DNA of 64,000 nt from Paraescarpia echinospica (taxonomy: Eukaryota; Annelida; Polychaeta; Sabellida; Siboglinidae): contig CM034531.1 of assembly GCA_020002185.1 (NCBI GenBank), positions 80,159,738 to 80,223,737 on the forward strand, read 5' to 3'. The notes under the pieces are model-generated. The model was given only the letters and a program-made list of their open reading frames with translations. It was not told the origin of the DNA and did no database searches. The position numbers and the translations under genes are program-made. Numbering within the stretch: position 1 is the first letter of the stretch; each line of letters begins with the position of its first letter. Shown piece after piece: positions 27,846 through 45,558 of the stretch.

Positions 27846-28298
27846 TTATTGCAGTTGTTTAAGCCAATCGAATACGCGGCAATCGTTTGCTACCAGATCA
27901 GTGCCGAAACCTTTTACGAAATCCTTCATGACAAGTCCACGACATCGAAACATGAGATAAGCAACACAGTATCGTCCACAAACGTTAGACACGGGACTCT
28001 GCAGTCTCTTAGAATTATGAGTCCACGTTACACAATGTTTATTCAAGAAACGTCGAAACTCGACGTGTCGTGGCGGCAAGCCGTAAGAGCAGAAGTATTC
28101 GCCGCAACCGTTGGCATCTACGTAGATAGCTATCCAATGTTCTCCGGGTTTACCCGTGTCGTGCGTGTTGCACACGAAGGCGACGGGGTAAGCGTCTATC
28201 TGGAGTTCGAGGAGTACGTCTTTGGGTACGATCCCGCGCATGACGACACGGGCGTGCGTATCGCGGGTGAGTAGACGGACGAGCTGCATGGTTTCCAT
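27846..28298 (-). CDS. PRO: Adenain-like (Ulp1-fold) cysteine protease
   Basis: A 150-residue protein of the adenovirus-protease/Ulp1 clan that in Polintons is expected to process virion proteins. Seen: EHWIAIYV with His54, LQSP with Gln100 (oxyanion) and NVCGRYC with Cys107; the Gln-Cys spacing is seven, as in adenain. The catalytic acid is expected in the YF(D/E)SYG segment, but residue 70 reads Cys (EYFCSYGLPP). The codon is TGC, so two changes from Asp. This may mean a weakened enzyme or another residue filling the role. Its ATG overlaps the capsid-gene stop by one base (TGATG), suggesting coupled translation or a shared transcript. Length is normal for the family. Confidence 0.9.
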   Translation of the reverse strand: METMQLVRLLTRDTHARVVMRGIVPKDVLLELQIDAYPVAFVCNTHDTGKPGEHWIAIYVDANGCGEYFCSYGLPPRHVEFRRFLNKHCVTWTHNSKRLQSPVSNVCGRYCVAYLMFRCRGLVMKDFVKGFGTDLVANDCRVFDWLKQLQ

Positions 28299-29617: not shown

Positions 29618-30020
29618 CGTCGAATATATCGGGTTCACGACGTACCTTCGGTTTCTGCTGTTTCCTCCGACGTCTCGCTGGTGTACTGACTCGTTTCGCA
29701 GGGTGTGTGCGTCTTATACGCTTACGTGGTCGCACGCCAGGGGTCAAGAGATCACTCATCATATCTCTACCGGCAGTGGTGACGCGACGTTTGGCGGCCG
29801 TTCTGATGTTCTGTCCCGACAGGACGTCGTCGGCTATGCGTGCGCCGGTCGACAGAGCTCTCTTTCCCAACGCCACGGCTCCTCTCTTGACGAGTGGCAT
29901 GACGCTACGCAGTAGACTTCCGAATAGACTTCCCAGGCCGTGTCCCCGTTGGTGTCGGGCACCCACGAAATAAGGAATCGCGCCTCCCGCTTGACGATCG
30001 TAGTAGTCGGTGTAATTCAT
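29601..30020 (-). CDS. Basic virion protein with GG cleavage site
   Basis: A 139-residue protein, strongly basic toward its C-terminus (RPRKRIRR, PARRRRKQQK). Near the N-terminus RQAGGAIPYF contains a Gly-Gly that fits the adenain cleavage pattern. It is followed by GHGLGSLFGSLLRSVMPLV, a potential amphipathic helix. Similar small proteins sit next to the capsid gene in many Polintons. The layout (short propeptide, GG site, amphipathic segment, basic tail) recalls adenovirus core or lytic minor proteins, so a role in genome packing or membrane penetration is inferred, not shown. It lies between minor and major capsid genes and overlaps the latter by 17 bases. Confidence 0.75.
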   Translation of the reverse strand: MNYTDYYDRQAGGAIPYFVGARHQRGHGLGSLFGSLLRSVMPLVKRGAVALGKRALSTGARIADDVLSGQNIRTAAKRRVTTAGRDMMSDLLTPGVRPRKRIRRTHPAKRVSTPARRRRKQQKPKVRREPDIFDDGVRS

Positions 30021-30110
30021 CTCCGAACAGTGCCGTCCGTTGCCGTTGGAAATGAAGTGTCACCGTCACCTTACCAACCTCGAATGGCACGCGATTTCCG
30101 GTGTCGTCTC

Positions 30111-30785
30111 TTATGAAATGTAGGGTCTTCTTATCGAAGGTACGATGTCGCCATGGCGACCGCTCACTGGGATGATGCGCAGCAGCGGCACGAGACTGTC
30201 ACCAACAACTCGTGGTTCCACGACATCCGTATAGATGTAGAGTGAGTCGAGCCCTCGTTCCATGGTGATCACGGTGTCGGCTTCCGTGATCAATACCTTG
30301 AACTCGGGTGCATCGGGATCCTTCGGGAGATACTCCAGCGTAGTGGTACGAAAGCCGAGAACGGCGGTCAGTATAGCAGCACGGAAGACGGTATTCGGTG
30401 CCATGTGCACCGATACCTTATGCGTAATGATGTTGTAGCTCAGTTTCACTCGTCCCTCTCCCACCACACGACGTAGAGAGGCGTTAATGGAGAGGATCAG
30501 TGACCACGGATCTTTATAGTATCCGGTTCCGATTCGGATAGTCTTCGTGTGCAGGGACCGTGGGTGCTCTTCGTCTATCGGTAGTGTCACAGCGAACCCC
30601 GCGTCATCGTCTACGATGTTGTACCAACTGTGTGGGTACTGTACCTCCACCAGACCGCATTCCCATTGTCCCCGTAGTAGGATACGTTTCGGTAGCGTCG
30701 TGATGTAGTGGGTCAGCGTGTTGTCGGGGTGCGTGTGCATGGAAGCATTGCTGGGCAACGTGAGATAGAAATCACTCCGTTCCAT
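30111..30785 (-). pseudogene. mCP: Minor capsid (penton-like) protein, C-terminus frameshifted
   Basis: A 224-residue frame beginning SDFYLTLPSNASMHTHPDN and continuing WECGLVEVQYPHSWYN, as in the single-jelly-roll minor capsid proteins expected to form vertices. The N-terminal 210 residues look normal, through VEPRVVGDSLVPLLRIIPV. The frame then stops after SIRRPYIS. Family members continue with a final strand containing a DDTG..VPFE.G.V.V.LHF pattern. That pattern is present here just downstream (about 30030-30118) in a different frame, and roughly a dozen residues before it appear missing. A small deletion with frameshift is the simplest reading. ATG 30785 overlaps the preceding membrane-protein gene by 14 bases. 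Confidence 0.8.
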
Positions 30786-31089
30786 GTTGTTGTTGTTGTT
30801 TCAACGTCGGACTGGGTAGCAGGTAACCCAACGAACTGCTCAACAGGGCCGTCCACAGAGTCGGATCGTGGTGGCCAAACGTCAGGTTGTAGATGCTGAC
30901 CAAGATGACCGTGTACAAGACGAAGACCTGACACAGAAAGACGATCTCCTCTTTGGGACACGCGGTACCGAATATGTGCCATATAGTCCTCTCTTTCTTT
31001 AGTGGTGGTGGCGGTAGAGCGTCGACGTCGTCTTCTTCTTCTTCTTCTTCGTCGCTAACGGTCATACGTGATGTTGTCTCGTCTGCCAT
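30772..31089 (-). CDS. Polinton membrane protein
   Basis: About 105 residues from ATG 31089; the open frame extends upstream only to TTG. An acidic N-terminal stretch (SDEEEEEEDDVD), a proline run and a KKER cluster precede IWHIFGTACPKEEIVFLCQV, a motif I associate with a conserved membrane protein next to the minor capsid gene in animal Polintons. One strong hydrophobic segment (about FLCQVFVLYTVILVSIYNL) and a weaker one (LWTALLSSSLGYLL) follow. Function is unknown; virion membrane or assembly is a guess. A TATAAA (minus strand) overlaps the integrase stop about 40 bases upstream and could be its promoter. Confidence 0.75.
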   Translation of the reverse strand: MADETTSRMTVSDEEEEEEDDVDALPPPPLKKERTIWHIFGTACPKEEIVFLCQVFVLYTVILVSIYNLTFGHHDPTLWTALLSSSLGYLLPSPTLKQQQQHGTE

Positions 31090-31129
31090 ACGTGGACGAC
31101 TGACATCGCGACGGACGCACAATTAGTCT

Positions 31130-32196
31130 TTATAACCCGACGAGACCCTTGGCATCGATCCAGCTGTTGAACTTCGAAGGATATCCGACCCATTTCACCA
31201 ACACCTCCCGTCGCCTGCCTACCTTGCGGCGCTGTACTATCGATTCCACACGGTACAGTTTATCGACCGGAACCGTCACCTTCTGCATCTCCGGTTCGTA
31301 GAAGGTACCGTCCAGTATCTCGCCGAGATCGTCCGTTAGACGATAGACGGGTGGATCGGACGGATGGACTTCGGGTATCGTGAATAGTTCCTCTGTCCAA
31401 TTTATCGTGTAACCTTTATCGAACCGTCTCTTAGCCTTGCTGATACGTATGCGATCCCCCACGTGGTACTTGGGTACACCCTTACCGTGATGACCACCGT
31501 ACAGACGCTGCCACACCTCTTCCTGATTAGTCGCATCCACCTGTGACGGAGACATCCCGATACTGCGGTGAGGTGTGTCGTTGTACGTGCGCACCAGATC
31601 CGGAAGGATATCGATGTACCGCCACGCTTTTTTTGTGTCAGGTATCGCCACATACGCGACATTAGTGTGCGATTGAAGCGTTCCACGATGCTCGCCTTGA
31701 TCTCTGCGTTGAAGGTGGAGAAGAGGTGGATACCGTATCTGTCCAATACACCCCGAACGCTACGGTTATAGAATTCCAGACCTCTATCGGTCTGCAACGA
31801 CAGCGGTTGAATGTCGGTGAAGAGACCGTTCAGTGCCTTCGACACAGACGTCGCCGACTTGTTCTTCAGTGGAACGCATCAGGCGACTTTCGAGAAGACG
31901 TCGATCACCGTGAGCGGGAACGTTGTACCGTCGTTTTCTTTTTTCAGACTGGACACGTCAACGAGATCGGCCTGCCACTGTTGATCCCGTCCTCCGACGA
32001 TCGTGCGCCGACGCTTGAAACGAACTCTGACCGGTTTATGTAGTGTATAGGCGTTCTGTTCCGATAGCCATTGTTCGACGATTTTTCTCGGTACGCGTGG
32101 TATGGCGGTTCGTCGCAAAGACGCGATTCCTCCGTAACTACCCACCTTGGCGGGGTTGAAGTAGACGTCCTCCAGCTGTTTACGACGGCGCACCAT
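31130..32196 (-). pseudogene. INT: Retroviral-type integrase with chromodomain, disrupted
   Basis: An RVE-fold DDE integrase that would insert the element. ATG 32196 (MVRRRKQLEDVYFNP) is the likely start. Seen in order: TLHKPVRVRFKRRR and QWQADLVDVS (first Asp), LQTDRGLEFYN (second Asp), KASIVERFNRTL (Glu), then a C-terminal chromodomain (LYRVESIVQRRK, EVLVKWVGYPSKFNSWI). Two breaks exist. An in-frame TGA (31879-31881) stands where the family has Trp after FSK.A. A -1 shift occurs at an A7 run (31628-31634); the last third lies in that frame and ends at 31130. Apart from these breaks the spacing looks normal. Catalytic residues are all present, so the damage may be recent or partly sequencing error. 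Confidence 0.88.
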
Positions 32197-32334
32197 GATG
32201 ACGTACGTATGATATAATCGATGGTAATCCCGCACACGATGGGAAGTCCGCTGTAAGAAACACCGGTAAACAGACGTGTTAGACTGTCCCGTAGATCACA
32301 CATTATGTCGGTGAATCGAGATGATGCGTCTCTT

Positions 32335-33108
32335 TTATTCGAGACGCTCCCATGTCTTACTAGTCGACGTCGGTGGTGTAGGTAGAGTAGACGGACTCAT
32401 TCGAGATCGTCTCCGCGAGAGGGGTGTCCACTGCAGCGTTCGACGTGCTCTACCGAGCGATCGTGTGGCCGCCGCTTCTATGGTACGCTTCCTTTGTTCC
32501 TGTCGAATGGCCAGTCTCCTGGCCTCGTTACCCACCAACTCCATAGGCAGATTCATGTCGCCGAGTTGATGTGCAAACACCTGCCACCCCGTTGGAGAAC
32601 CGATGGTCTTGCGCTGACGCAACAAATCGTTCACGAGGTCCACCACGTTACTTCCGGGTACCGCTACGCCTTTGTTCATGAGCTCTCCACGCGCATTCCA
32701 CGCGACGTCTCGTTTCAGACGTTCCATCAGTCGTCTGGCTTTGGCCTGGAGGCGTTTGGGAACACAGTCGATGACTTCCGCTTCCACCCCCACCTCCGGA
32801 GGGGTCGGATCCGTATTAGCTCCCGCCACCACCGCCGCCGCCGTGACCACCGGGGACGTGTCCTTGTTGACCGTTATCACGCGCATCGGTTCGCGCGTGC
32901 GTCGATCGGACAACGCGTTGTAGCGTTGCAACACTTGATTATACATGACGACCTTGTCACCGTCGGTGAGATCTTGTCTGTCGAGTATGACGTTCATCTC
33001 GTCGTCGAGTACCTGTACTTTGCGTCCTAGGGTATCCGTCGGTGCCGGTGCGCGTAGACTGTCCAACAGTCGCGGATCTACCAAGGCCATCTTCCGTGCG
33101 TGTTCCAT
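32335..33108 (-). CDS. Conserved Polinton protein, unknown role
   Basis: 257 residues from ATG 33108. The middle (DCVPKRLQAKARRLMERLKRD, then WNARGELMNKG and VPGSNVVDLVNDLLRQR) resembles a protein widely conserved between integrase and ATPase genes in animal Polintons; I know no function. A long N-terminal half contains VMYNQVLQRYNAL. The C-terminus is Arg/Ser/Pro-rich and could be out of frame for its last 40 residues, as it looks unlike the ordered part. The start overlaps the upstream gene by 31 bases. Confidence 0.65.
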   Translation of the reverse strand: MEHARKMALVDPRLLDSLRAPAPTDTLGRKVQVLDDEMNVILDRQDLTDGDKVVMYNQVLQRYNALSDRRTREPMRVITVNKDTSPVVTAAAVVAGANTDPTPPEVGVEAEVIDCVPKRLQAKARRLMERLKRDVAWNARGELMNKGVAVPGSNVVDLVNDLLRQRKTIGSPTGWQVFAHQLGDMNLPMELVGNEARRLAIRQEQRKRTIEAAATRSLGRARRTLQWTPLSRRRSRMSPSTLPTPPTSTSKTWERLE

Positions 33109-33473
33109 CGTTGTCTACTTGAGTAGCACCTGTTTAGCAAGGGTAGCAAGACCGCACCTGCCAAAGGTGCCAGCAGTGCCGACAGGAAACCACCGGTCTG
33201 TCCTCTTCCGCCCTGGTTGTTACCCCGTAGCAAGATGCGACGTCTCCTCGCTGCAGGTGCGTCTCTCTGTGCCAAAGCACGTAGGTTTGTTTTGTACACG
33301 TTCAGAGCACGTCTCTGCACGTCGGTCAAGGGCAAGTTCTTCTTCAATATGTTGTAGGCACACTCGGCTAGTGCACACAACAGATCGGCGTCGGCGTTTC
33401 TGATGATGGCTCGTCTCAATTTCGTGCTCTTGTATCTGTTTAGCGTCTGTATGCAGAGGATGTGTTTCTTCAC
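33078..33473 (-). CDS. Conserved small Polinton virion-type protein; start changed to GTG
   Basis: A 131-codon frame. KLRRAIIRNADADLLCALAE and NILKKNLPLT, then a basic patch, resemble a short conserved protein found near the ATPase in many animal Polintons. QTGGFLSALL followed by hydrophobic LLAPLAGAVLLPLL suggests a GG protease site before a hydrophobic tail. No ATG is in frame between the ATPase stop and this region. The codon at the position where relatives seem to begin is GTG (33471-33473), so the start was probably lost by mutation, or initiation is non-ATG. The last ~15 residues overlap the next gene. Confidence 0.6.
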   Translation of the reverse strand: MKKHILCIQTLNRYKSTKLRRAIIRNADADLLCALAECAYNILKKNLPLTDVQRRALNVYKTNLRALAQRDAPAARRRRILLRGNNQGGRGQTGGFLSALLAPLAGAVLLPLLNRCYSSRQRWNTHGRWPW

Positions 33474-33541
33474 GAGTTCGGATATGCTGTTGTCTTCACG
33501 AGCATGCTGCGACTGAAGGAACGAGGTGCTGCGCGGACGTC

Positions 33542-34159
33542 TTATTCCTTGGGTTGGTACACGTACTGGACACTGTCGTCCGGAAGGACACCCGTGCGCA
33601 GACGCATATCGTATAGCGTGCCCTGTTTCAGATCGACGAGGAGAATACCGTACGGGAGTGACGTGGCGTCTCGGAACGCTTCTTGTACAAACTTCAGGCG
33701 ACCCGGATACATCTGTCGTGCCAAGTGTCCGATCTGTGACGCGTCGCGAGGATTCTTGAAGATCACCATGTAGTGTGCGTTCAGACTGATCGTACGACTC
33801 TCCTTGTTCTTCGGAAACAGGTTCTGCACGAGATACAGTACGGACGTGTTCTGGTGATGACTCTTTTTTGTGAACAAGGTCGTGACCCGTTCGTCCGTTT
33901 CTGCCATCAGATCATCGATGACCACGAGGTTACGCGTCGATGCGTCGAACGCACCGCTCGGTAAGCCTTCCTCGAATCGTACCAGGTCGTTGTCAACGTA
34001 GGCACTCTGCCATACACCGTAACACCACGTGATCTTCTCTGGAGGTGGATCGATCATCGTTGCGGCGTGACGTAGCAGACGCATCACGAACGTGGTCTTA
34101 CCGCATCCCGTCGGTCCCGCAACGATACAGGTGAAGGGGTGTTTCCTTCGCGTGTCCAT
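33542..34159 (-). CDS. ATP: Genome-packaging ATPase (FtsK/HerA-type)
   Basis: 205 residues, intact. Walker A GPTGCGKT at residues 15-22 and Walker B LVVIDD at 78-83, then HHQNTSVLYLVQNLFPKNK and FKNPRDASQIGHLARQ, match the Polinton/adenovirus-like packaging ATPases that would pump the genome into the capsid. Length is normal. ATG 34159 abuts the stop of the small membrane-protein gene with no spacer (TAG then ATG). Confidence 0.93.
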   Translation of the reverse strand: MDTRRKHPFTCIVAGPTGCGKTTFVMRLLRHAATMIDPPPEKITWCYGVWQSAYVDNDLVRFEEGLPSGAFDASTRNLVVIDDLMAETDERVTTLFTKKSHHQNTSVLYLVQNLFPKNKESRTISLNAHYMVIFKNPRDASQIGHLARQMYPGRLKFVQEAFRDATSLPYGILLVDLKQGTLYDMRLRTGVLPDDSVQYVYQPKE

Positions 34160-34339
34160 CTAGTAGTCACCGGTGGTGTTCGACAATGTCGCGTTGACCA
34201 CTGTGCTGTTAGTTGCGACGACGACACCTCCACCACACCAACGAAGGAAGGGATCGCGGAACAAGACGTACAAGACGTACAGATACAGACCGAGTATTCC
34301 CACTAGTGCTACAGCTACAAGCGTTCCCGTCCGTGACAT
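34160..34339 (-). CDS. 59-residue single-pass membrane protein
   Basis: A short frame from ATG 34339 to TAG 34160. It begins MSRTGTLVAVALVGILGLYL and has a hydrophobic helix over residues 7-27 ending in FRD, then a Gly/Val stretch and a polar tail with Asn-X-Ser/Thr sites (NST, NAT, NTT). The stop is directly followed by the ATPase ATG, which supports it being real. Small membrane proteins occur in other Polintons, but I cannot assign a role. Confidence 0.65.
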   Translation of the reverse strand: MSRTGTLVAVALVGILGLYLYVLYVLFRDPFLRWCGGGVVVATNSTVVNATLSNTTGDY

Positions 34340-34440
34340 GCTACGTTATGACTATCGATTGTGTGGCATCTGGCTAAATAGTGTTATCTTTTTTTTTTCT
34401 TTTTCGTGTGTCTCCGCCTACTAACCGCGTGACAGCTAGA

Positions 34441-34480
34441 GGCGCCTATAACCCCAACTGACGTAGGGGCGCATTTCCTC
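34441..34480. promoter_or_regulatory. 40-bp repeated element, copy after POLB
   Basis: GGCGCCTATAACCCCA, then a variable loop, then GTAGGGGCGCATTTCCTC. The same element is at 39152-39193 in the same orientation. On the minus strand it can form a CCCC/GGGG hairpin with a 10-base loop and carries GGGGTTATA. It begins 24 bases after the POLB stop and lies about 100 bases before the 59-residue gene, so it could be a 3' RNA signal or a promoter. Confidence 0.6.
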
Positions 34481-34503
34481 ATCGTGTCAGCAGTGGTTCG
34501 GCA

Positions 34504-37500
34504 TTACACGTCCACCGGCCCCGTGGTGATTCCGTCTTCGTTGACCACGCGCTTGGCATAGAAGTAGGTCAACGCCGCACGTTCCTGGATGCACGTCAGC
34601 ACGGACGAGTGATTGACCCGGAACCCGCGGTTCTTCCCACTTCCACTGCAACGATTGGTCAACATGTCCAGGAACGACTGCTTGTCGATGGTGTTGAGTC
34701 GTTTGTTCAGACCTTTGGTGCTGTATTTATCGACCGTACCCGAACAATAGTAGGTCTTGCTGCACAGACCCAGGAAACAGTCACCGGACCATTCGACCTT
34801 CAAGAGTCCCGGTGTTCTCTTGTCGTACGCCTTGCGCTCCTTGCAACACGTCTCGGTGCCGTTCCACGGACTTCCGGCCAGGCGACAGAGCACGTAGTCG
34901 TTCTGATGATCGTCGCAACATTCGGACGGTAGCCATTCGGAGCGGTGATGATAGTAGTGGTCGCGCAGTGCCGGGGTCACGAGGTCGTCGACGGACTCAC
35001 CGGCCAGAGCCAAATAGGCGCTGTCCGTATCGGTTTCGCAGTACTCGAACAGCGGACGATCCACGTACCTGACCATGAAGTCGTAGTAGAACTCCAACAT
35101 ACGCAGTTTGGCCCACTGCAACACGAAGAATCCCACGTGTGTGGGCAGTGCGTATTTGACGGTGCGTTTGTGCATTTCGATCTCGTATGCATCGGCAGCG
35201 ACGACGTCGAGTTGACGGAAGCGACGATTGTTGATCGCGGTCGATGCACTCTTCTCCGTGCAGTAGGTGACCTCGCGGTGCTTATCGACGTTGGTGATAA
35301 ATTTCCCGTAGGACGAATTGCCCATAAGTTTGTAGGTATCCGCGATCATGGCCTTGTCGGGATGGGCGTCTCCTTCGCGACGTGCGGTGGACACCGCCTC
35401 GCCGAATCGTCGGAAGCAGGCGACCGGTGTGTACTCGATGACCTGGTAGACGTGCGTCACCTCGAGTCCGTGCGCGAGGTACCATCGCAAGAGTGGTGTG
35501 GCGAGCAAGATCTTATCCCCTCGATAACTCCCGACGAGCATGCGTCGCGGAGTTGCCATGATGTTGTGTTCTTCGGCGTAGCGACGCATGAACGGTCCGA
35601 GATCATCGCGGGTCAGGTGAATGTTCTTGAAGATGGGCTGCATCTCGGCAAAGTGTGCGCGCAGGTCCTCCGGTACACGTATGTCGCACTGAATCATACC
35701 GAACACGCTACCGTTGCACACACCTGTCAGGATCTGTTGTGACGTCATTTTCCAGCGCACGTGTCGACGACGTTGGCGAACGTCCAGAAACTTTTGTACG
35801 CACGGATCGCGTCTCGTGACCTTCCACTCGCATTCCCACAATTCGACGACCCTCACAAAGTGTCGAAGATAGGCTGTGTTCTTTCGTGTTTCGGCGAGCA
35901 GTTGCATCATGGGTTTCCCGCTGACCTCGTTGAACTCGCGTCCGGTGCACGGACACCCGTGGTAGTAGCATCCGTGAAACTGATAGGCCGTCTTCGTTTC
36001 ACTGCACCAACCGTCCACCAACAGTTTACCGATGCGCTTCTCTCGACCGTTGGACTGATGACGTATGGTGAGTCCCGTGCTTTCGGACTCCCACGTAAGC
36101 CAATCGACAGCCATCTGACCTGTGGGCTGTGCCACTTCGGGACGGAACTCCTTCTCTTCCCGTCGCCGCGTGTACCATCCAGTCGGCATCTCTTGTGATA
36201 TCGACCACAGATACAATGCATTCGCATCGTAGCCCACAATGGACTGACACGTTCGAGCCGCATCACCGTAGTCGTTACGACGTATCTTCGTGACCCTCTT
36301 CTCGTGATGTCTGGTGAAGATGAGTGACGGTCCTCCGACGATGTTCTCTCTGATGAGCTGGTGGACGTCCTTGTTCGTCTCGTTGAAGAGCGTAAAGAAC
36401 GTCCTCTCCGGTACATAGGTGAACAGGTAGGACAAGGTCAAACCAGGTATACTGATCCCTTGTTTGAACATGTCGAGTCCGCGGTGTTGGTAGAAGTCGA
36501 ACTGTTTGGCGATGGCTTCCAAGAACGGTACGACGTCTCTGTTGTTATACCAGACGAGAAAGTCTCGCAAAGTCTCCATGTCGTTGTCTCGCCACACCTT
36601 CCGACATCGTGTGTAGTCGTCGTCGGATATACCTTCGTTTTTCAGACAACAGAAGAAGGCCTCTTTGGGAGGTAGAACGGTGTCGTCGAGTCTCTCCAAG
36701 CTGTCCATGTATTCGTACGGGAAGTGACCTTTCGTGACTGTACAACCGTACGCTTTCAGGTACTTGTCGTACGAGAATCCCGGGGCAATGTAATGAGTCA
36801 TGTCGAGGAATTTGAGGTTGTCCGTCGATAGACACATAAACGTGTTGCCACGTTTGATCACGTGAAACGTCTCCTCCTCCTCCTTCTCCTCCTCCTCTCC
36901 GTCCTCTGTTGCTTTCTTTTCGGACAGGAAGTAGGGTACCAGGAACTGTTTGACGACGTTCAGATCGTACCTGCCCGAGTTGAAACCGATGACGGGCAAC
37001 TGATGAAGCCAACCGTACAATTGCCCCATGAGAGTTTTGTAGGGATTGGTCGGTTGTCGCTGTGACTCGTTGTCCCCCGCCTCCTCCACGGCGGACGCTT
37101 CCTGTTCGTTCCACTTCCTGATAGCCTCTGTGAGCTCGTGTAGGATGCCCTCGTACCTGTCTACGATGACTTCGTAGGCTGCTTCGCTCATGTTCTGAAG
37201 GATGGTCATCATGTCGGATACCAACTTGTTGCTGTCACCATCCGTGATGAGACATTGCACCTGTTCGAATCCGGGTACGTTACTCGCCAGGGACACACTC
37301 AACGGTACGTGACGAGCCACCCAGTGGACCTTGGCACTGTCCGACGGAAGCTGCGATGTATCGAACCAGGACTCGAAGTCGAAGGTGGCGCGATACGGAT
37401 AGTAGCGCAACCATTCGGCAACGTGAATGTTTTCGTCGTCCAATCGCTGGAAGACTGTCGGCGACGGATGGTAGACGCCACCGGAATAGATCTTTCGCAC

Positions 37501-38880
37501 GCCTCCCGTACACCCGCGCTCGTGTCGTTCTAGTTCGGATACGCGGCTCCATAGTGCATCGCCACACTTCCTACATCGATACGAATGACAGTACATGTTC
37601 ACGTCTTGTATGTAGGAAAAGTGTGTCTCGTGAAGATTGATGTACATCGTTTCAGGATAATGACACAAGGAACGGCGTACGAGTTCAGCAGTCACCTTTC
37701 CACCTTCTTCCGGTTCGACGAGTGTGTAGACGCACACGTTGGTCTCAAAGGTGGTCTCGACGCGATAGAGATCGTCCATCGTCATCCCGTCAAAGTCTTT
37801 CATTGCCACCCCGTCACGGTCGTACTTCGCGTAGAGTACCCGCACAGCGGGTTCCAGGTGGTATCGGTCGCATCCGCGATGCAGAGCCAGACATCGGAAG
37901 AGACACAGATTGTCGGTGTACTTTTTCTTGTGGACCGAGTCTCTTTCCAATCCGATGACGGCTTTGATTCGTTTGATGTACCTCGGCAGTGTGATGTCCA
38001 CACATCCTATCGGATGATGTACGATGTGATTGACGAAGAAGGTAACATTCGTGACCACCTCACATACCCATTGACTGTCCGGACGCTGATTGATGACCCA
38101 CTGCAGCACGTCTGTTTCTCGGATACGTTCCAGAAAGGCATCAAAGTCTGCAGTGTTTGTGATCAGACACGGTTCGTCAAGGTAACGACCACAACAGTTA
38201 CAGGACGAATGATAATACCTGTACCTGTTCGTGGTCTTGTTCCTTAACACAAACCCGTAACTAAGATTAATCTTAAACGCGTGCGTCTGTTCGCGGAACA
38301 TGCGTTTCAGTGACGGTTCTAGGGCACTCGTGTCCGGTGTCGACACTCTGTAATTGTACCTGGATTGCACAGGTCCTCTAGCCGTGTGGGTTCGGATGGT
38401 CGACCAGTGATCTCGGACGACGTCTTGTAGTTCCCTCGATAGAGTATCGGTGAAGGGAAGTCGGGGTGGTGGTTGTATCGGGTCGTCGTCGTCGTAGTCG
38501 TCAGCAACACTCACACGGGATCGCTCTGTGCGTCTCGCTCGTTTGCATAGGGGTGGGTCGTTCGCTTCCATACATACCGACTTCGCGACACTCACACGTG
38601 GTCGCTCTGTGCGTCTCGCTCGTTTGCGTAGGGGTGGGTCGTTCGCTTCCATACATACCGACTTCATATGACGTAACAGGCTGTCACGTCTCGTGAACTC
38701 ACGTGCACATCTCTCACAACGATGCAGTGTAGCACTAGATGGCGCCACTCGTGACGGTGATTTACTGTAGGCATGATCGTCGTGTGTTGTTGATGATGAA
38801 TGTGTTTGGTCTATATGACGTTGTATGTCGGCGTGTGTATCGAGCACGAGACCGCAGTGACGACACGTGTGCTGTTTCAT
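34504..38880 (-). CDS. POLB: Protein-primed family B DNA polymerase
   Basis: 1458 residues, intact. It should replicate the element from a protein-linked terminus. Exonuclease motifs: FDFE (500-503), IGFNSGRYDL (631-640), YNNRD (778-782). Polymerase motifs: YDANALYLW (884-892), KLMGNSSYG (1184-1192), DTDS (1284-1287), KTY (1375-1377). Between A and B, FHGCYYHGCP (968-977) is the embedded VSR-like segment typical of Polinton polymerases. N-terminal extras: two C2H2 zinc fingers (6-27 and 55-76), a tandem duplication of a 26-residue basic segment (KRARRTER, about 73-126), a DNLCLFRCLA segment (323-332) reminiscent of OTU-type cysteine proteases, and a zinc-finger-like CRKCG..H..GC (436-457). 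An acidic run (EEEEKEEEE, 662-670) interrupts the exonuclease domain. A TATA tract lies about 40 bases before the ATG. Confidence 0.96.
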   Translation of the reverse strand: MKQHTCRHCGLVLDTHADIQRHIDQTHSSSTTHDDHAYSKSPSRVAPSSATLHRCERCAREFTRRDSLLRHMKSVCMEANDPPLRKRARRTERPRVSVAKSVCMEANDPPLCKRARRTERSRVSVADDYDDDDPIQPPPRLPFTDTLSRELQDVVRDHWSTIRTHTARGPVQSRYNYRVSTPDTSALEPSLKRMFREQTHAFKINLSYGFVLRNKTTNRYRYYHSSCNCCGRYLDEPCLITNTADFDAFLERIRETDVLQWVINQRPDSQWVCEVVTNVTFFVNHIVHHPIGCVDITLPRYIKRIKAVIGLERDSVHKKKYTDNLCLFRCLALHRGCDRYHLEPAVRVLYAKYDRDGVAMKDFDGMTMDDLYRVETTFETNVCVYTLVEPEEGGKVTAELVRRSLCHYPETMYINLHETHFSYIQDVNMYCHSYRCRKCGDALWSRVSELERHERGCTGGVRKIYSGGVYHPSPTVFQRLDDENIHVAEWLRYYPYRATFDFESWFDTSQLPSDSAKVHWVARHVPLSVSLASNVPGFEQVQCLITDGDSNKLVSDMMTILQNMSEAAYEVIVDRYEGILHELTEAIRKWNEQEASAVEEAGDNESQRQPTNPYKTLMGQLYGWLHQLPVIGFNSGRYDLNVVKQFLVPYFLSEKKATEDGEEEEKEEEETFHVIKRGNTFMCLSTDNLKFLDMTHYIAPGFSYDKYLKAYGCTVTKGHFPYEYMDSLERLDDTVLPPKEAFFCCLKNEGISDDDYTRCRKVWRDNDMETLRDFLVWYNNRDVVPFLEAIAKQFDFYQHRGLDMFKQGISIPGLTLSYLFTYVPERTFFTLFNETNKDVHQLIRENIVGGPSLIFTRHHEKRVTKIRRNDYGDAARTCQSIVGYDANALYLWSISQEMPTGWYTRRREEKEFRPEVAQPTGQMAVDWLTWESESTGLTIRHQSNGREKRIGKLLVDGWCSETKTAYQFHGCYYHGCPCTGREFNEVSGKPMMQLLAETRKNTAYLRHFVRVVELWECEWKVTRRDPCVQKFLDVRQRRRHVRWKMTSQQILTGVCNGSVFGMIQCDIRVPEDLRAHFAEMQPIFKNIHLTRDDLGPFMRRYAEEHNIMATPRRMLVGSYRGDKILLATPLLRWYLAHGLEVTHVYQVIEYTPVACFRRFGEAVSTARREGDAHPDKAMIADTYKLMGNSSYGKFITNVDKHREVTYCTEKSASTAINNRRFRQLDVVAADAYEIEMHKRTVKYALPTHVGFFVLQWAKLRMLEFYYDFMVRYVDRPLFEYCETDTDSAYLALAGESVDDLVTPALRDHYYHHRSEWLPSECCDDHQNDYVLCRLAGSPWNGTETCCKERKAYDKRTPGLLKVEWSGDCFLGLCSKTYYCSGTVDKYSTKGLNKRLNTIDKQSFLDMLTNRCSGSGKNRGFRVNHSSVLTCIQERAALTYFYAKRVVNEDGITTGPVDV

Positions 38881-38920
38881 CGTACCTACAACTGAAGGAT
38901 GGGAGATCCTTGCAGGTGTC

Positions 38921-38954
38921 TATATATATATATATCCTACACTGTGTGACGTCA
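38921..38954 (-). promoter_or_regulatory. POLB promoter: TATA tract and CRE
   Basis: (TA)n at 38921-38935, about 40-55 bases upstream of the POLB ATG, and a perfect TGACGTCA (CREB/ATF site) at 38947-38954 just upstream of it. Spacing fits a TATA promoter with a proximal CRE. Confidence 0.6.
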
Positions 38955-39060
38955 TAAGAGGTGTGACTTGTATGAGTGTGCGTGTATGTATTCACCGATC
39001 GCAACGAGCTATGAAGGTAACAAGAACAACAGACACCAGAATCCTGGATTACATACCATC

Positions 39061-39066
39061 TTTATT
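39061..39066 (-). terminator. AATAAA polyadenylation signal
   Basis: Minus-strand AATAAA about 250 bases after the stop of the 118-codon gene and upstream of the POLB promoter, so it could end the accessory transcript. A nearby direct repeat (AAAGCGAGTATATGAAAGC, twice, 39083-39123) has no known role. Confidence 0.4.
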
Positions 39067-39151
39067 CATGGAATTATACAATCAAAGCGAGTATATGAAA
39101 GCTCAAAGCGAGTATATGAAAGCAAAGCAAGCCCTACAGTGACAGACAAGC

Positions 39152-39193
39152 GGCGCCTATAACCCCAGCTATAGCGTAGGGGCGCATTTCCTC
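39152..39193. promoter_or_regulatory. 40-bp repeated element, copy before POLB
   Basis: The same GGCGCCTATAACCCCAGCT...GTAGGGGCGCATTTCCTC block as at 34441-34480, with a different loop. It lies about 120 bases after the stop of the 118-codon frame. The two copies bracket the polymerase gene. Confidence 0.6.
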
Positions 39194-39313
39194 TTGTCGT
39201 CACTGCAGGCGCTTCTCAAGGTTATTTGCTATGTATGCGACGTGTTCGTCGCGCACAACATTTCGAGCGATCTCCTCGCACATCGTACGCACGGCCCCGT
39301 GTAGACTACATGG

Positions 39314-39670
39314 CTACGTTGCAAATAGAGTCCCCGCTAGGGACTCTATATTGAGTTCCAGATGTCGAACACTGTCAAACGGCGCCGAATAGGCCCACGG
39401 GATCGACGTATCAGTTTTGGACCATACGATATGGCCGTCGTACGCCAGGTCGAGCGTTGACGCGTCCCTCCTGAGCGTCTCATAATCAGAGGTGGTCATG
39501 GTGACGTCGTAGTCGTCGTCGTTCGCGCATGCCATGTCCAGGGTGAACGATGTGGACACTTCGGTAGAGGTTGAGGGTGACGCGGCTTCACATGTCATCT
39601 CCAATAGTGGAGATGAGTTGTGCTGCTGCTGCTCGTGCTGTTGGATCAGTAGCGCCTGTCGCAGCGGCAT
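39314..39670 (-). CDS. Unrecognised accessory protein
   Basis: 118 residues from ATG 39670; the frame stays open upstream to TAA near 39777, through a basic QKRRRHH stretch. A minus-strand TTGCTAACAG at 39773-39780 looks like a 3' splice site, so this may be a last exon whose true start is elsewhere. Residues are Ser/Thr/Asp-rich (SPSTSTEVSTSFT, NDDDYDVTMTTSDYE). No domain is recognised. Confidence 0.4.
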   Translation of the reverse strand: MPLRQALLIQQHEQQQHNSSPLLEMTCEAASPSTSTEVSTSFTLDMACANDDDYDVTMTTSDYETLRRDASTLDLAYDGHIVWSKTDTSIPWAYSAPFDSVRHLELNIESLAGTLFAT

Positions 39671-39861
39671 GGGAGTGTGGTGACGGCGACGTTTTTGTGG
39701 CGCCCACTCTATCGGGTTCTGGGTGTATGACTGGCGAATCAGCTCCAGACCGCTAGAGGGAGCATCGGTGGCCTGTTAGCAACACAACAACAACAACATT
39801 AGCAGGGTGTTTTTACGTCCGCCATTGGTATACCACGTGTACGCAGGATGGCTTGTACACG

Positions 39862-40623
39862 TTATACGATGTCACGTGACCACTCCGGTGTGCTCGCCAT
39901 AAACCTGTAATGCTGCACTGCATATCTCAAATTGTCGTGGATCAGGTCACTACGCACCAGGTAGATGACGTTTGACTCACCTTCGAACAGGCGCCACAGT
40001 TCGTTGCTTATAAAACGAACGATAGCATCGAGTGCTACTGCACACAGCTCGGTGTACCAGATCTGCCTGTCGTCCCCCGTGTCGTCTTGTTCGTCCCAGG
40101 GCAGTGACTCCTTCGGTGTGAGTGGTTCGTCTTCCTTCGCATCCGACACGGTTATACCGCGGGCATGGAGACTCGCTTTCACCCGTACTATGACATTACG
40201 AGCAAACCACGGTGTGCGCGCTACGCATACCAGCTCGGTTACTACCATATCAAAGCTATTATATATACGTATGGGATCTACTTTGTACATGTCTTCGTGA
40301 ACGTTCGCATAGTGACGACTCAGTGATTCGGCCGCCTGGCGAGAGCAAGCAGCGGTTATAGTGGCCATAAATAGACCGTCATCTATCATTTGGTCTGCAC
40401 GCTTCTGAATGCCATTCACCTTCTCTACCGCTTCCTGTAATTCACTACGTCTCCTATCCTCGGCATGGTCAATATCAGTGGTCCAATCAGTATCAATATC
40501 ACCATCATTAGCAATCTCCTCATCATCATCATCACTAGACCACGCACACGACCCCACATAGATGACACTTGCCTTATCATCATCATCGCCGTCTTCGAAC
40601 AGGCGACGTTTCACCCCGCGCAT
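39862..40623 (-). CDS. Accessory protein with cyclin-docking-like N-terminus
   Basis: 253 residues from ATG 40623. It begins MRGVKRRLFEDGDDDD: KRRLF fits the Cy (RxL-F) cyclin-binding motif and the basic run could be a nuclear signal. Two acidic tracts follow (DDDD, SSDDDDEE). The rest is mostly helical-looking and unrecognised (QKRADQMIDDGLFMATI, RTPWFARNVIVRVKA, ALDAIVRFISNELWRLF). A perfect 5' splice-site sequence AAG/GTGAGT (39975-39980 as GTGAGT on the minus strand) lies inside the frame near its end, and an acceptor-like CTAACAG lies 208 bases on, so the 3' end may be spliced. Joining those two sites reaches a stop after six codons rather than entering the next frame. Confidence 0.55.
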   Translation of the reverse strand: MRGVKRRLFEDGDDDDKASVIYVGSCAWSSDDDDEEIANDGDIDTDWTTDIDHAEDRRRSELQEAVEKVNGIQKRADQMIDDGLFMATITAACSRQAAESLSRHYANVHEDMYKVDPIRIYNSFDMVVTELVCVARTPWFARNVIVRVKASLHARGITVSDAKEDEPLTPKESLPWDEQDDTGDDRQIWYTELCAVALDAIVRFISNELWRLFEGESNVIYLVRSDLIHDNLRYAVQHYRFMASTPEWSRDIV

Positions 40624-40724
40624 GCTAGGTGTTGACCAAGGAGGAGGAGTCTACAACACACGAAAGAAGCAAGTGTCAAATACATCATTCATTCATTCAT
40701 CGCTGGCAGGTGGCGCCACATCAT

Positions 40725-41384
40725 TCATTCGACACTGTCAGGTGGTGCCTCTTCCGACTGGAATATTTCCAGTACGTCACTGTCAGGTGCCGCCACCTCC
40801 GACTGGAATATTTCCAGTACGTCATTGTCAGGTGCCGCCACCTCCGACTGGAATATTTCCAGTAAGTCACTGTCAGGTACCGCCTTGTCCGACTGGATTA
40901 TTTCCAGTGCAATCAAGGTGTAGTTTCGATAGCCCTCCTTTGTCTCCTTTCTAATTGTCACCCTAGCCCGTTTGCCGCGTAGGACATTCAGTGCCTCGTA
41001 GCGTTCTTGGCCGGGTTTAAGCGCCATATAGTCGCTTGCTGTCATTCCCCCCACGGCCCCCTGAACTATACGATCAAATCCTGTGACCCACACTTCATTC
41101 CCCTTGCGATCGGCAAAAAGTATACCCATAGCATACTTGTAAACGGGGTTACCCGTCTGACGGCCGTGTACAGCACATGTACTGACGCTATGGCGGTTCC
41201 CCTTCGTCATTTCAAGACGAAGGACTTTCCGATTACATATACGGCATGCCGGGTAGCATACATATTTATCTGTCAGAGCACATGTTACTAGTGTCAGTGG
41301 GCGAACAAATGCGTACGTTCCGTCACTTACTTGTTCGAGTTCTGAGAGCAGCATTTCCTCGGATTTGATATTGGGCGTCGCCAT
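40725..41384 (-). CDS. RPA70 C-terminal-domain-like single-strand DNA-binding protein
   Basis: 219 residues. The core resembles the Rep_fac-A_C domain, the OB fold with zinc ribbon that binds single-stranded DNA in RPA1: YPACRICNRKV, then CAVHG (Cys47, Cys50, Cys70, His73 as possible ligands), VYKYAMGILFADRKGNEVWVT, FDRIVQG and LRGKRARVTIRKETKEGYRN. It could coat strands displaced by the protein-primed polymerase. The C-terminus is four tandem 15-residue repeats (LEIFQSEVAAPDSDV type, residues about 160-219), acidic, matching 45-bp DNA repeats at 40730-40915. I choose ATG 41384 (strong context, AAGATGG) because a TATA box at 41488-41494 lies downstream of the earlier in-frame ATG at 41516. 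The order, a lone RPA-C fold with an acidic tail, is unlike cellular RPA1, which has four OB folds. Confidence 0.75.
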   Translation of the reverse strand: MATPNIKSEEMLLSELEQVSDGTYAFVRPLTLVTCALTDKYVCYPACRICNRKVLRLEMTKGNRHSVSTCAVHGRQTGNPVYKYAMGILFADRKGNEVWVTGFDRIVQGAVGGMTASDYMALKPGQERYEALNVLRGKRARVTIRKETKEGYRNYTLIALEIIQSDKAVPDSDLLEIFQSEVAAPDNDVLEIFQSEVAAPDSDVLEIFQSEEAPPDSVE

Positions 41385-41487
41385 CTTGTTGAGCAGTGAA
41401 GTCGAGAGTGGCAGAGCAGTGAAGTAGTCGAGAGCGGCAGCAGCGAGTCGGAGAGAGAATGTTTGTCCTGTTGGATTTACCCTGGGT

Positions 41488-41580
41488 TTATATACATAAT
41501 CATTCCCTCCAGGCATCGATCACGTGTACCGTAGACAATGACATCACGCGCCCCTGGGTGTTCGCGTCTTATCAGGCGCG
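41488..41580 (-). promoter_or_regulatory. Promoter of the RPA-like gene, with shared upstream element
   Basis: Minus-strand TATATAA at 41488-41494, placing transcription start near 41460 and the ATG at 41384. Directly upstream, 41513-41580 contains GCATCGATCACGTG (E-box CACGTG), TGACATCA and CCCCTGGGT. These same parts occur in the same order in the two 85-bp repeats at 42299-42468. Confidence 0.6.
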
Positions 41581-41652
41581 TGACTTTATCTCTCTCTCTC
41601 CCGTACTCTGTCACCGTGTGGCTGACTGTCTGTTTTTTGTGTAATGGACGCC

Positions 41653-42126
41653 TTAGCACTGCCTAACGAAGTCTCTCACCTGCATAAGAATCACACCGAG
41701 TATATTCTTACCTGCTTCGTTACGCTTTGAACTCTTACCCCAATACCCTTCCGCACTGGGTACATTCTCAATAAGTCGTGCGTCACATGTAGCCAGCAAG
41801 CGTTGCCGTAGTTTAGAGGCACGAAACTTCACGGCTACTATAGCGCCCATTACGGCTCGACGTTGTGATAGCCATGTAGCAGTTCGATCCGGTGTCCACC
41901 GAATGTTTTTACTCCAGTATTTCGCCTGTATTCCACTGCGTGCAGTCTGAATCTTTCTCGCTGTGTTCTCATCGTGAAAATGTCTGGCTTTTTTAAACTG
42001 ATAGGCTGCTTCTGCACAAGAAAAGTCTTCGCCCCATATGTGTATATTACATGGATAGAAATTAGATAGGAAGTGACCAGCACCCCTGAATTGTATATCC
42101 AAGCTCTTGACCCCCATATGTTTCAT
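41653..42126 (-). CDS. NADAR/YbiA-family protein
   Basis: 157 residues, a single compact domain. It fits the NADAR superfamily (YbiA, DUF1768): GHFLSNFYPC (17-26), FSCAEAAYQFKKA (35-47, with the conserved Glu39 before AAYQ), RTATWLSQRRAVM (81-93), KFRASKLRQRLLAT (100-113), LIENV, GYWG (127-130) and GKNILGVILMQVR (139-151). Family members act on ADP-ribose-type adducts: YbiA on N-glycosides of riboflavin biosynthesis, and some bacterial NADARs remove ADP-ribose from guanine in DNA. In a mobile element a counter-defence role against ADP-ribosylation is an inference. ATG 42126 is used; Met4 is an alternative. It is transcribed divergently from the spliced plus-strand gene. Confidence 0.85.
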   Translation of the reverse strand: MKHMGVKSLDIQFRGAGHFLSNFYPCNIHIWGEDFSCAEAAYQFKKARHFHDENTARKIQTARSGIQAKYWSKNIRWTPDRTATWLSQRRAVMGAIVAVKFRASKLRQRLLATCDARLIENVPSAEGYWGKSSKRNEAGKNILGVILMQVRDFVRQC

Positions 42127-42298
42127 CGCTGACCACTCACAGAGTTCTTTTCTCCCGTCTGTATTGTTAGCGTTCTGATAAGACGCATTGTCCTAGTCGC
42201 ACTTCGTACATCATGCGCTTATCGCAGGGTCCTATGACTGATATCGGTTTACTACAGTGAAATTTTCCATAACGTCACATGGCTGGCTACATACCCAG

Positions 42299-42468
42299 GC
42301 ATCGGTCACGTGCCATCCCTAGATGATGATGTCATACGTCCCTGGGTCTTCAGCTTTTCATACACCGGTATTTTTCCACGCTAGCATCGGTCACGTGACA
42401 TCCCTAGATGATGATGTCATACGTCCCTGGGTCTTCAGCTTTTCATACACCGGTATTTTTCCATGCTA
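42299..42468. repeat. Two 85-bp tandem repeats, likely enhancer
   Basis: 42299-42383 and 42384-42468 differ at only a few positions. Each contains GCATCGGTCACGTG, TGATGTCAT (CRE-like) and CCTGGGTCTTC. They lie between the divergent NADAR and spliced genes, and a related copy sits upstream of the RPA-like gene. Confidence 0.85.
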
Positions 42469-42517
42469 CAGTGTGTCTTACAAGTTGCCTTCCTATCTGC
42501 GTGCATATGCTCTATCC

Positions 42518-42525
42518 TATATATA
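42518..42525 (+). promoter_or_regulatory. TATA box of the spliced gene
   Basis: TATATATA 44 bases upstream of the exon-1 ATG at 42569, just after the 85-bp repeats. Confidence 0.6.
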
Positions 42526-42568
42526 CTAGCTCGTTTGTTACATTCTTCACATCATCTCATTCGCAACT

Positions 42569-43605
42569 ATGTCGTCGATACCTTGGGCCCAACTGTGCGC
42601 TGAATGGCGTGACCTCGAAATGTAAGTACTTTTATTATTATTATTATTATTATTATTAATATCATTCTTTGTTTCATTCGATAGATATCCTATACAACAT
42701 ACTATAATCATCACAGTGTTCTTCACGTAAACTACCTGTGACGTCTCACCTCTATTATTCCTTATGCTTACGATCGTTATGTGTCACGGTTATCTATATT
42801 ACCTTTCAGGTCTGCCTGTATCACCGATGCTGCTGCTGCCTTATTATGGCGTGATCTCGAAATGTAAGTACTTTTATTATTCTTTGTTTCATTCGATAGA
42901 TATCCTATACATATCATACTATAATCATCATAGTGTTCTTCACGTAAACTACCTGTGACGTCTCACCTCTATTATTCCTTATGCTTACGTTCGTTATGTG
43001 TCACGGTTATCTATATTACCTTTCAGGTCTGCCTGTACCACCGATGCTGCTGCTACCTGGAGTCTGACAGGAAGTGTCAGTGACTCCAGTATTGAGGATG
43101 ATGAGGAGTGCACGTGAGTGTTCAATGATTACAACAATATTTTACTACCTTATTTATGTGTTCTCTTACCTCGTTTCTCATTCTCTCCAATGTATACACA
43201 GTCTTTCTTTATGCTGATCTCACTTGATCTCTTGTCGTTTCGACTAGGTATGCGGTGTTTGGTTACCGATTACGTCAGCAGACGTCTCCATTACGTATTG
43301 TATCATAGTCCGTTGATCTAGCTTGCCCTTTTATCGTATGTCGATTCCCTATGCGGTGTCTGGTTACATCACTGGCTTATTCCACCCGGCTGTACTTTGC
43401 ATAATATAATTCATATATATATATATATATATATATACAAAAATTTCATATATGTTTCAGAGAGGAGGAGTACCGCGATAATCATTCGTTCCTATTCTGT
43501 CACGTGCTACGCGAACTCCTGGCGACACGGCCTCCCTTTGACGCCGACCCTGTTCCTTCCCTGGTGGAGGTTGTCGAAGACTGGGATGCCGAGATCGATC
43601 GTTAA
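42569..43605 (+). CDS. Four-exon accessory gene, acidic 112-residue product
   Basis: Exons 42569-42621, 42810-42863, 43027-43113 and 43461-43605. Donors are GTAAGT, GTAAGT and GTGAGT; acceptors are TTTCAG three times. All introns are phase 2 and the joined frame stays open to TAA. Exons 1 and 2 both end in WRDLE plus a split Met codon. Exons 2 and 3 both begin SAC(I/T)TDAAA; the intron1-exon2 and intron2-exon3 blocks (about 215 bp) are near-identical, so an exon was recently duplicated. The product is acidic (SDSSIEDDEE, VEVVEDWDAE) with a hydrophobic patch in exon 4 (FLFCHVLRELL). No family is recognised. It is the only plus-strand gene of the element; AATAAA at 43623-43628 inside the terminal repeat would end its transcript. 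Confidence 0.8.
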
Positions 43606-43607
43606 TT

Positions 43608-44075
43608 CTTGTATCATTCGTTAATAAAATACGTGTGCACTCGTATATACTCTTGTGTTTCGTTAGTTCTTTCACACACGCACATCCTCTCTCTCCTCCC
43701 ATACACGTACATTCATACACAACTAATACCTCTCTACACTCCTCGTTATCATTAACAACCTAATCAACTTTCAAACTGTGGTTGTTACTAGTTATTCCCT
43801 TAGTACTAATTCTTCATACATACATACATACATCACATGTTTTAAAGACCGAGTATGTTTTAAAGTCCGAGTCGCTAGATAGCACTACGGCCGCTTAGCG
43901 CTAGATGGCACTACGGACGCTTAGGTACACTTCTTTCCGCTAGGAGGCGCAGGTCACGTGACTACTCACTTTGCTCAGGGGGAGGCTCACTTTGCTCAGG
44001 GGGGAGGCTTTCGAAACCTCCCTAATATCGCTTAAACACCGCAGGATGCCCCTCCAAATGTGCGAGCATACTACT
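43608..44075 (-). repeat. Polinton terminal inverted repeat, right
   Basis: 468 bp, inverse of 27182-27580. It is longer because of three short tandem duplications: around AGACCGAGTATGTTTTAA, around CGCTAGAT(A/G)GCACTACGG, and around GGAGGCTCACTTTGCTCAGG. It ends CATACTACT, followed by the AGCGTC target duplication. Confidence 0.95.
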
Positions 44076-45558
44076 AGCGTCTACGTTGGCTCAGTTGGCA
44101 ATACCGTGTTATCAGACCGATTCACTTTTTGGAATCTACGCCAGAATGCACAGGACACTATACTGGGAAGTCTGTGTGAATACGATGCTATGGCAGATGA
44201 ACTAATCAGGGACAAATTCATATTCGGGCTGCTAAGCCAGGCTACAAGAACCGACCTTTTGAAAGCTGATGGGTTCAAGAGAACACTGTCAGACGAAGCA
44301 AAAACCCGTGAATCAGCCAACCAGGCCAACAAACTAATAGTCGACACCTCCAGAAACATAGAGGAGCACGTCCAATGGACCAGTCACCGACACATGAGTC
44401 TGAAATGAGACGCCGGTACATGCCATTTGTGTGGGGACAAAAGAGGCCCCCGCCCTTGGAAATCCTGCCCAGCTAATGGAAGCCAAAGTCACAGGTTTGG
44501 AAATGTCAGACTTCGATTGGAGATGGATGATCGACAACGCAACGCACGGCTGATGTCAGCCACAGAGTTACGTCTACGTAAAGAAACCCAGAATGACTCC
44601 ATCATGTCCAAGTTGGACAATGTTATCACCCGAAGCTGACCTAGCGACAAAGCTTATATTGATGCTGACCTACATGCATTCTGGAGTTACAGAGATGAAC
44701 TGTCGATACAGAATGGCATAATATACAAGGATCTCCAAGCATTTATTCTACAATCAATGCACGCAGAGCTACTTCGCAGCATTCACTCCAATCACAGTGG
44801 AGCTGAATCAAACATACGCATGGCAAGAGAAGCTCTCGTCGGGCCTGGCATGAGAAGTGCAATTCTAGACACATGCCAAATATGTACCACCTGTGCTCAA
44901 CACGGACAGTCGGCGCCCAAGGAACTGATGAAATCCTCAACACTGCCTACATTACCTTGGCAACTTGTCAGCCAGCACCTGTTCTCACTGAATGGCAAGA
45001 ATTACTTGGTGACTGTCTGCCACTATTCGGACTTGATCGAAACCGACGAACTGGAAAACACACTTTCATCAACTGTGGTGAACGTGACAAAGCGTCATTT
45101 CGCAAGATTTGGCGTGCCTGAAGTTAGCCACATAGATAATTGGCCACAATTCACCAGCAAGGAGTATCAGGACGATAATGTTGACACTTACGTCTATGCC
45201 AAGCCTCCACCACACCAGCGCGGCAATCCATGGTAATATGGCAAAGTCGTGCACGATGCTGGCTGTAGATCAGATATCATACAAACTGGAAATGGTATCG
45301 AGTTACGTCGTAACAGAGGACACTTGCGACCAGCACTTGCGACCAGCAGCCACGCTAACAATTGGTCCGACACCTGCCTGTCCCTCTGTAGATGAAGCCC
45401 CAGCGGATTCGTCGGATGTAGTACAACCGGCAAACGAAATCACGCCTACCACGCCAAGTCCAGAAGGCGATGTTGATCAGGGCCAGTGCGAAAATGAGAA
45501 TACTTATCGTACTCGAGCCGGCCGTTCAATAAAGCCAAGAGACATACTGGACTTATAA
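44076..45558 (+). pseudogene. Ty3/Gypsy gag-integrase relic, right part
   Basis: Continues the element split at 27181. A gag-like segment with SDRFTFWNLRQNAQDTILGS and LIRDKFIFGLLSQATR runs to about 44400, followed by a decayed zinc knuckle (CHLCGDKRG...CPANG). The sequence then jumps to the post-RNase H/integrase region: SYRDELSIQNGIIY, the integrase HHCC finger (HSNHSG, CQICTTC), and a catalytic core with HIDNWPQFTS. The first catalytic Asp reads His (SQHLF) and the Glu block is missing. The end GRSIKPRDILDL then stop (45558) is a typical Gypsy Pol terminus. Protease, reverse transcriptase and RNase H are deleted. A 3' LTR is expected next but its borders could not be recognised. Confidence 0.75.

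Follow-up and report, generated by a model that had tools for sequence, protein, structure and literature searches.

Why should a Polinton in a tubeworm genome carry a gene of the NADAR/YbiA family, and what would the encoded protein do there? The locus lies in a stretch of 64,000 nucleotides from Paraescarpia echinospica (assembly GCA_020002185.1, contig CM034531.1, positions 80,159,738 to 80,223,737, forward strand), which we call the window. A sequence-only reading of the window had proposed that the gene belongs to the NADAR family, that it is intact, and that a Polinton carries it. It had also suggested that the protein could counter host ADP-ribosylation of the element's DNA, which the conserved residues and the published activity of other NADARs make a prediction. 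The first three proposals stand: the gene scores above the cut-offs of two protein family profiles, forms a 157-residue open reading frame (ORF) from an ATG, and sits, together with genes for a family B DNA polymerase (PolB) and an ATPase, inside the inverted repeats and AGCGTC duplication of a 16,894-bp Polinton that is complete at both ends. The reading we favour, with a probability of about 50%, is that this NADAR hydrolase is lasting Polinton cargo, made together with the replication genes, that would free the element's nucleic acid of ADP-ribose attached to its bases.

The family assignment is clear from the profiles. Against Pfam PF08719, the search that the sequence-only reading had suggested, the ORF gives a significant match of 84.4 bits (E 1.3e-23; curated cut-off 35.1), and its top NCBIfam model is TIGR02464, riboflavin biosynthesis intermediates N-glycosidase (87.5 bits; cut-off 73.7). 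Sequence search of the PDB returns YbiA (2b3w; E 1e-8) and a NADAR protein (8bau; 9.8e-6) as the sole matches at E <=0.001. The structure model, which has poor confidence over the first 18 residues, is likewise predicted to have the YbiA fold, in agreement with the structural check proposed earlier. The TIGR02464 match is what favours a house-cleaning N-glycosidase of the E. coli YbiA or plant type, acting on riboflavin intermediates and captured without any antiviral role. To our knowledge, animals make no riboflavin, and therefore this substrate would be absent from the host cell. YbiA-type members also strip ADP-ribose from guanine (PMC11125620), and we regard the riboflavin explanation as quite improbable.

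A second copy of the gene exists outside the window. Protein search with the window NADAR gives 6 matches among 23 candidates, the closest being P0001 with 85% identity. The locus tag of P0001 neighbours that of P0007, which is 77% identical to the RPA-like protein encoded next to NADAR in the window; both lie on one 4,088-bp contig, QGON01000011.1 (L001), which the GTDB collection assigns to a bacterial endosymbiont of Escarpia laminata. The gene order on this contig is that of the window: NADAR, RPA-like, gene C, gene D and the start of PolB. In blastn comparison with the window, piece 34-1384 of the contig (NADAR, spacer and RPA-like gene) shows 79% identity, and piece 1686-4088 (genes C, D and the start of PolB) shows 72%. 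Genes of this kind can hardly be bacterial, and the contig is therefore most likely tubeworm DNA in a symbiont bin. Upstream of the window NADAR there is no in-frame ATG, GTG or TTG before a stop, which makes the longer annotated start of P0001 doubtful. Because the gene occupies the corresponding position in the second copy, NADAR looks like a lasting part of this Polinton lineage. Presence in a related element, a check named in the sequence-only reading, is thereby confirmed for one second element. As a side observation, the symbiont bin seems to include host sequence, since QGON01000011.1 carries Polinton genes.

The second element also bears on whether NADAR could be a host exon or an unrelated gene that landed in the Polinton by chance or misassembly, the outcome that the sequence-only reading had named as fatal to its proposal. 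By tblastn, a single locus in the window encodes the protein (the remaining matches listed have E >=2.3), and this lone copy is compatible with such an accident. The gene order common to both elements is evidence against it: the second, diverged element carries NADAR at the equivalent position, and the Polinton ends and target-site duplication are intact. We rejected this explanation on the matching gene order and leave it next to no probability.

Pairwise Nei-Gojobori comparison of the window with the Escarpia copy (for PolB, over the N-terminal 203 codons) gives a non-synonymous rate (dN) of 0.091 and a synonymous rate (dS) of 0.352 for NADAR, a dN/dS of 0.26. The ratio is 0.33 for the RPA-like gene, 0.37 for the N-terminal part of PolB and 0.66 for gene C; that of gene D (0.10) was left unused, its dS being saturated (2.68). 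The excess of silent change per site in NADAR is significant (Fisher p 7e-7, rounded counts), as it is in the RPA-like gene (5e-6), the PolB part (1e-4) and gene C (0.017). NADAR is thus under purifying selection between the two copies. Only two elements are compared, so this selection may have acted in an ancestral virus and not in the integrated copies. Immediately upstream of the NADAR ATG, 1 of 55 nucleotides differs, whereas 59 of the 471 coding positions do (412/471 identical, ungapped; two-sided Fisher p 0.013), which hints that this stretch acts as a leader or in regulation.

Profile search finds 4898 NADAR matches among 7994 scored candidates; in the best 120 of these, none except P0001 exceeds 41% identity. 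A scan with a seven-row NADAR alignment finds at least 444 relatives, and none of the best 80 exceeds 40%. The IMG/VR scans with NADAR, the capsid candidate, PolB and the RPA-like alignment reveal no close relative, and the ATPase matches three loci over query residues 10-31 only. An initial scan of genome contigs with six peptides confirmed nothing; P0001 contains none of the six, and the scan with P0001 itself recovered L001. For the tree and column counts we combined 78 of the 80 loci (two had no usable ORF) with the 120 proteins and the window, 199 sequences altogether. The two Polinton copies share a long stem in this tree and fall with P0002 and L075 in a four-member set with a Shimodaira-Hasegawa-like approximate likelihood ratio support of 93 (mark 95), which may reflect long-branch attraction.

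The residues expected of an active enzyme are retained. Glu39, Lys46 and Glu120 of the Polinton protein match E43, K50 and E125 of the Phytophthora enzyme, assuming that the chain numbering runs two ahead of the paper's. Among 197 relatives, a set skewed to the best profile-ranked sequences, Glu39 and Lys46 are each present in 197 and Glu120 in 195; in both Polinton copies Glu120 is the residue aligned with E125, the catalytic glutamate of the YbiA subfamily. In the Phytophthora enzyme E43 and E125 bind the distal ribose and K50 the diphosphate (PMC11543638). According to the same source, hydrolysis by the E. coli C7 enzyme suffers when the residues equivalent to K50 or E125 are changed, with K95R still active in vitro; at the residue equivalent to E43, Ala costs little activity in vitro and Gln abolishes it. 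At the E125 position the BC4488 group has Asp and phage NADARs have His (PMC11543638). In the DarT1 group the catalytic Asp (D171 of E. coli C7) precedes the aligned Glu by two residues; the Polinton protein has Leu118 at that place, so that by its aligned residues the Polinton NADAR is YbiA-type. We read it as a predicted active hydrolase whose substrate may have shifted.

From the conserved residues and the published activity of other NADARs, the Polinton protein would cleave the N-glycosidic bond between ADP-ribose and a base in nucleic acid, most likely guanine. Protein-primed polymerases produce single-stranded intermediates. Guanine-ADP-ribose is a substrate of NADARs from E. coli strains, from a phage and from an oomycete (PMC11125620, PMC11543638), and Polinton PolB is protein-primed (PMC4028283). 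In the proposed scheme, NADAR would be expressed together with the adjoining replication genes; protein-primed strand-displacement replication would expose single-stranded DNA, and the product of the adjacent RPA-like gene would cover it. ADP-ribosyltransferases of the host, a symbiont or a toxin would modify this DNA and block copying, and NADAR would lift the block by stripping the ADP-ribose. A guanine-DNA ADP-ribosylating activity is present in six edible clams (PMC11209040).

The same cargo gene could instead be aimed at small soluble ADP-ribose derivatives, cyclic or linear, and quench a signal of host immunity. Such derivatives have been proposed as targets of viral NADARs, foremost those of phages (PMC9503650), and the Polinton-specific pocket changes described below would suit a different substrate. 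The protein is also only 157 residues long and its first 18 residues are poorly modelled, so that no extension of the kind seen in DarT1-linked NADARs (PMC11543638) is evident. Conversely, a nucleic-acid substrate fits a gene placed amid RPA-like and PolB genes at least as well. Macromolecular targets are favoured for the NADARs of eukaryotic RNA viruses (PMC9503650), and DNA bearing guanine-ADP-ribose is a substrate of E. coli YbiA-type enzymes (PMC11125620). We consider a soluble target possible but rather unlikely.

Several points weigh against the removal of ADP-ribose from the element's nucleic acid as the role of this gene. The conserved neighbourhood rests on one second element. Pfam scans of 10 + 8 window ORFs contain no ADP-ribosyltransferase, no dedicated search or model having been applied, and we are aware of no description of ADP-ribosylated bases in annelids, a matter on which no search was made. 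Activity on model DNA does not always bring rescue from toxicity (PMC11125620), so activity in vitro would be no proof of the role. The pocket itself has diverged: position 126 is Glu in both Polinton copies and Asp in 197 of 197 relatives, position 40 is Ala in both copies and His in 180 of the 197, and the loop at 121-134 is unlike that of the relatives in both copies. The residue aligned with position 126 in the Phytophthora enzyme, D130, contacts the diphosphate through water (PMC11543638), and the Polinton protein has extra residues near 78-84 relative to the compared set. These changes could alter the substrate. E. coli YbiA likewise lacks the common 121-134 loop. The Glu for Asp at 126 and the changed loop would also suit a NADAR whose catalysis is changed or lost and which serves as a reader or shield by binding ADP-ribose or nucleic acid modified with it. 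The Glu-for-Asp swap preserves the charge, however, the three main active-site positions are retained and the gene is under purifying selection, which makes a reader or shield unlikely.

The removal of ADP-ribose from nucleic acid is our preferred role. Should the enzyme work on nucleic acid, its presence would suggest that invertebrates use base ADP-ribosylation for defence. That this annelid Polinton lineage carries a nucleic-acid de-ADP-ribosylase as a counter-defence beside a single-strand-binding protein, and that base ADP-ribosylation is antiviral there, we suggest only tentatively.

Table 1. Features of the Polinton and its insertion site, in window coordinates
Feature	Position	Strand	Remarks
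Polinton	27182..44075	.	inverted repeats, target-site duplication, termini starting AGTAGTATGC
Target-site duplication, left copy	27176..27181	.	AGCGTC
Left terminal inverted repeat	27182..27583	+	arms I1-I7
Adenovirus-type protease candidate	27846..28298	-	Peptidase_C5 E 0.0025, 18 bits, under 21.3 cut-off
Major capsid candidate	28298..29638	-	
Minor capsid (penton) candidate	30111..30785	-	
Integrase region	31130..32235	-	several ORFs; chromodomain at C-terminal end
Packaging-type ATPase	33542..34159	-	Pox_A32 25.5 bits (cut-off 22.8), Adeno_IVa2 22.7 (21)
PolB (DNA_pol_B_2)	34504..38880	-	1458 residues; 37.1 bits, cut-off 25.8
Gene D, function unassigned	39314..39670	-	118 residues; common to Escarpia contig, longer there
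Gene C, function unassigned	39862..40623	-	253 residues; common to Escarpia contig
RPA-like gene (Rep_fac-A_C)	40725..41384	-	219 residues; downstream of NADAR, same strand; Pfam E 1.3e-8
TATATAA box	41488..41494	-	before RPA-like gene; present in Escarpia contig too
NADAR/YbiA-family gene	41653..42126	-	157 residues, ATG start, intact; ORF, profiles, PDB matches
Leader of NADAR	42127..42181	-	immediately upstream of ATG; 54/55 nt identical to Escarpia contig
Two tandem 85-bp copies, 98% alike	42299..42468	+	contain CACGTG and TGATGTCA; between NADAR and rightmost gene
Right terminal inverted repeat	43605..44075	-	arms I1-I7, collinearity incomplete
Target-site duplication, right copy	44076..44081	.	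AGCGTC

The RPA-like protein has a domain of the type found at the C-terminus of the RPA large subunit and is perhaps a single-strand-binding replication protein. We set its start at a conserved Met-Ala aligned with P0007 and P0008, the ORF itself extending to 41516. Two of 829 candidates match it in protein search, with 77% (P0007) and 56% identity, both on short public contigs. Its C-terminus (40725-40890, minus strand) contains about three in-frame 15-residue repeats, and the Escarpia copy ends ahead of them. Diverged, shorter versions of the 85-bp repeat are found ahead of the RPA-like gene at 41509-41563; the 85-bp repeats, lying between two divergent genes, are perhaps shared promoter elements. 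The rightmost gene (42569-43605, plus strand) appears spliced, with small exons, GT-AG borders (by eye) and an end adjoining the right inverted repeat. One of its exon-intron units is tandemly duplicated, with GTAAGT donors at 42622 and 42864 (by eye).

The stop of gene D (39314-39316, minus strand) falls about 38 codons short of that of its Escarpia counterpart and similarity continues past it; to judge by this alignment, the window gene may be truncated. PolB has an N-terminal zinc-finger-like stretch. The integrase region, described as damaged in the sequence-only reading, is indeed split over ORFs in different frames (31130-31651, 31402-31845 and 31879-32235), the third of which we take to be integrase. 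The chromodomain (E 1.5e-8; 34.9 bits, cut-off 25.1) is the only domain there above cut-off, and one piece gives a weak rve match (E 0.033; 14.9 bits against a cut-off of 32.6). The ORFs that we take to be the major and minor capsid candidates have no match in the Pfam scan, and the single-sequence structure model of the former reaches a mean predicted local distance difference test score (pLDDT) of only 30.5.

Polintons usually have a 6-bp duplication and termini starting with AG. An ORF just beyond the right end of the element (44757-45236, plus strand) matches Integrase_H2C2 at 28.2 bits (cut-off 25.5) and rve weakly, for which reason the Polinton may lie in or next to a Gypsy-like retroelement. 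Insertion inside a gag gene, read from the joined empty site, was set aside as unproven: the left and right coding-like frames disagree at the junction, so the joined site is no proof of insertion in a gene.

Phages, large DNA viruses and RNA viruses are known to carry NADARs (PMC9503650); this source does not mention Maverick, transposon, adintovirus or virophage. PMC11071296 and PMC11071308 do not mention NADAR. Our literature search, mostly outside subscription papers, found no report of NADAR in a Polinton among the papers listed, and an earlier report is possible.

Among the closest known systems are the YbiA-subfamily hydrolases (E. coli YbiA, 2b3w; Phytophthora nicotianae NADAR, 8bau), with which the Polinton protein shares the predicted fold and the Glu/Lys/Glu active-site set. 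It differs from them in Glu126, in another 121-134 loop and in the extra residues near 78-84, and its identity to them in structural alignment is 27-28%. DarTG1 (the DarT1-NADAR toxin-antitoxin) and anti-phage NADARs belong to the same family and give weak matches (NF053876, 45.2 bits with a cut-off of 240; PADLOC PDC-M42C, 44.4 bits); unlike DarTG1, the Polinton NADAR has Leu118 in place of the catalytic Asp, and no toxin partner occurs among the ORFs scanned, a toxin-specific search not being part of the scan. Viral NADARs of invertebrate hosts are a further parallel, being present in nidoviruses, ascoviruses, iridoviruses and picornaviruses of annelids and bivalves (PMC9503650). Foldseek with the predicted NADAR structure recovers proteins of yellow head and gill-associated viruses (E 1.2e-3 to 2.6e-3) and of Ingleside virus (4.6e-6). 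The NADARs of RNA viruses are parts of polyproteins and the DNA viruses in PMC9503650 are of another class, whereas the Polinton NADAR is a stand-alone gene. The genes named for Polintons in PMC4028283 are PolB, integrase, ATPase, protease and capsid, along with several uncharacterized proteins. The element described here agrees with Polintons/Mavericks (Polintoviricetes, adintovirus-like) in size, PolB, ATPase, integrase-region chromodomain, protease candidate, inverted repeats and 6-bp duplication, and departs from them in having NADAR and RPA-like genes between PolB and its right end.
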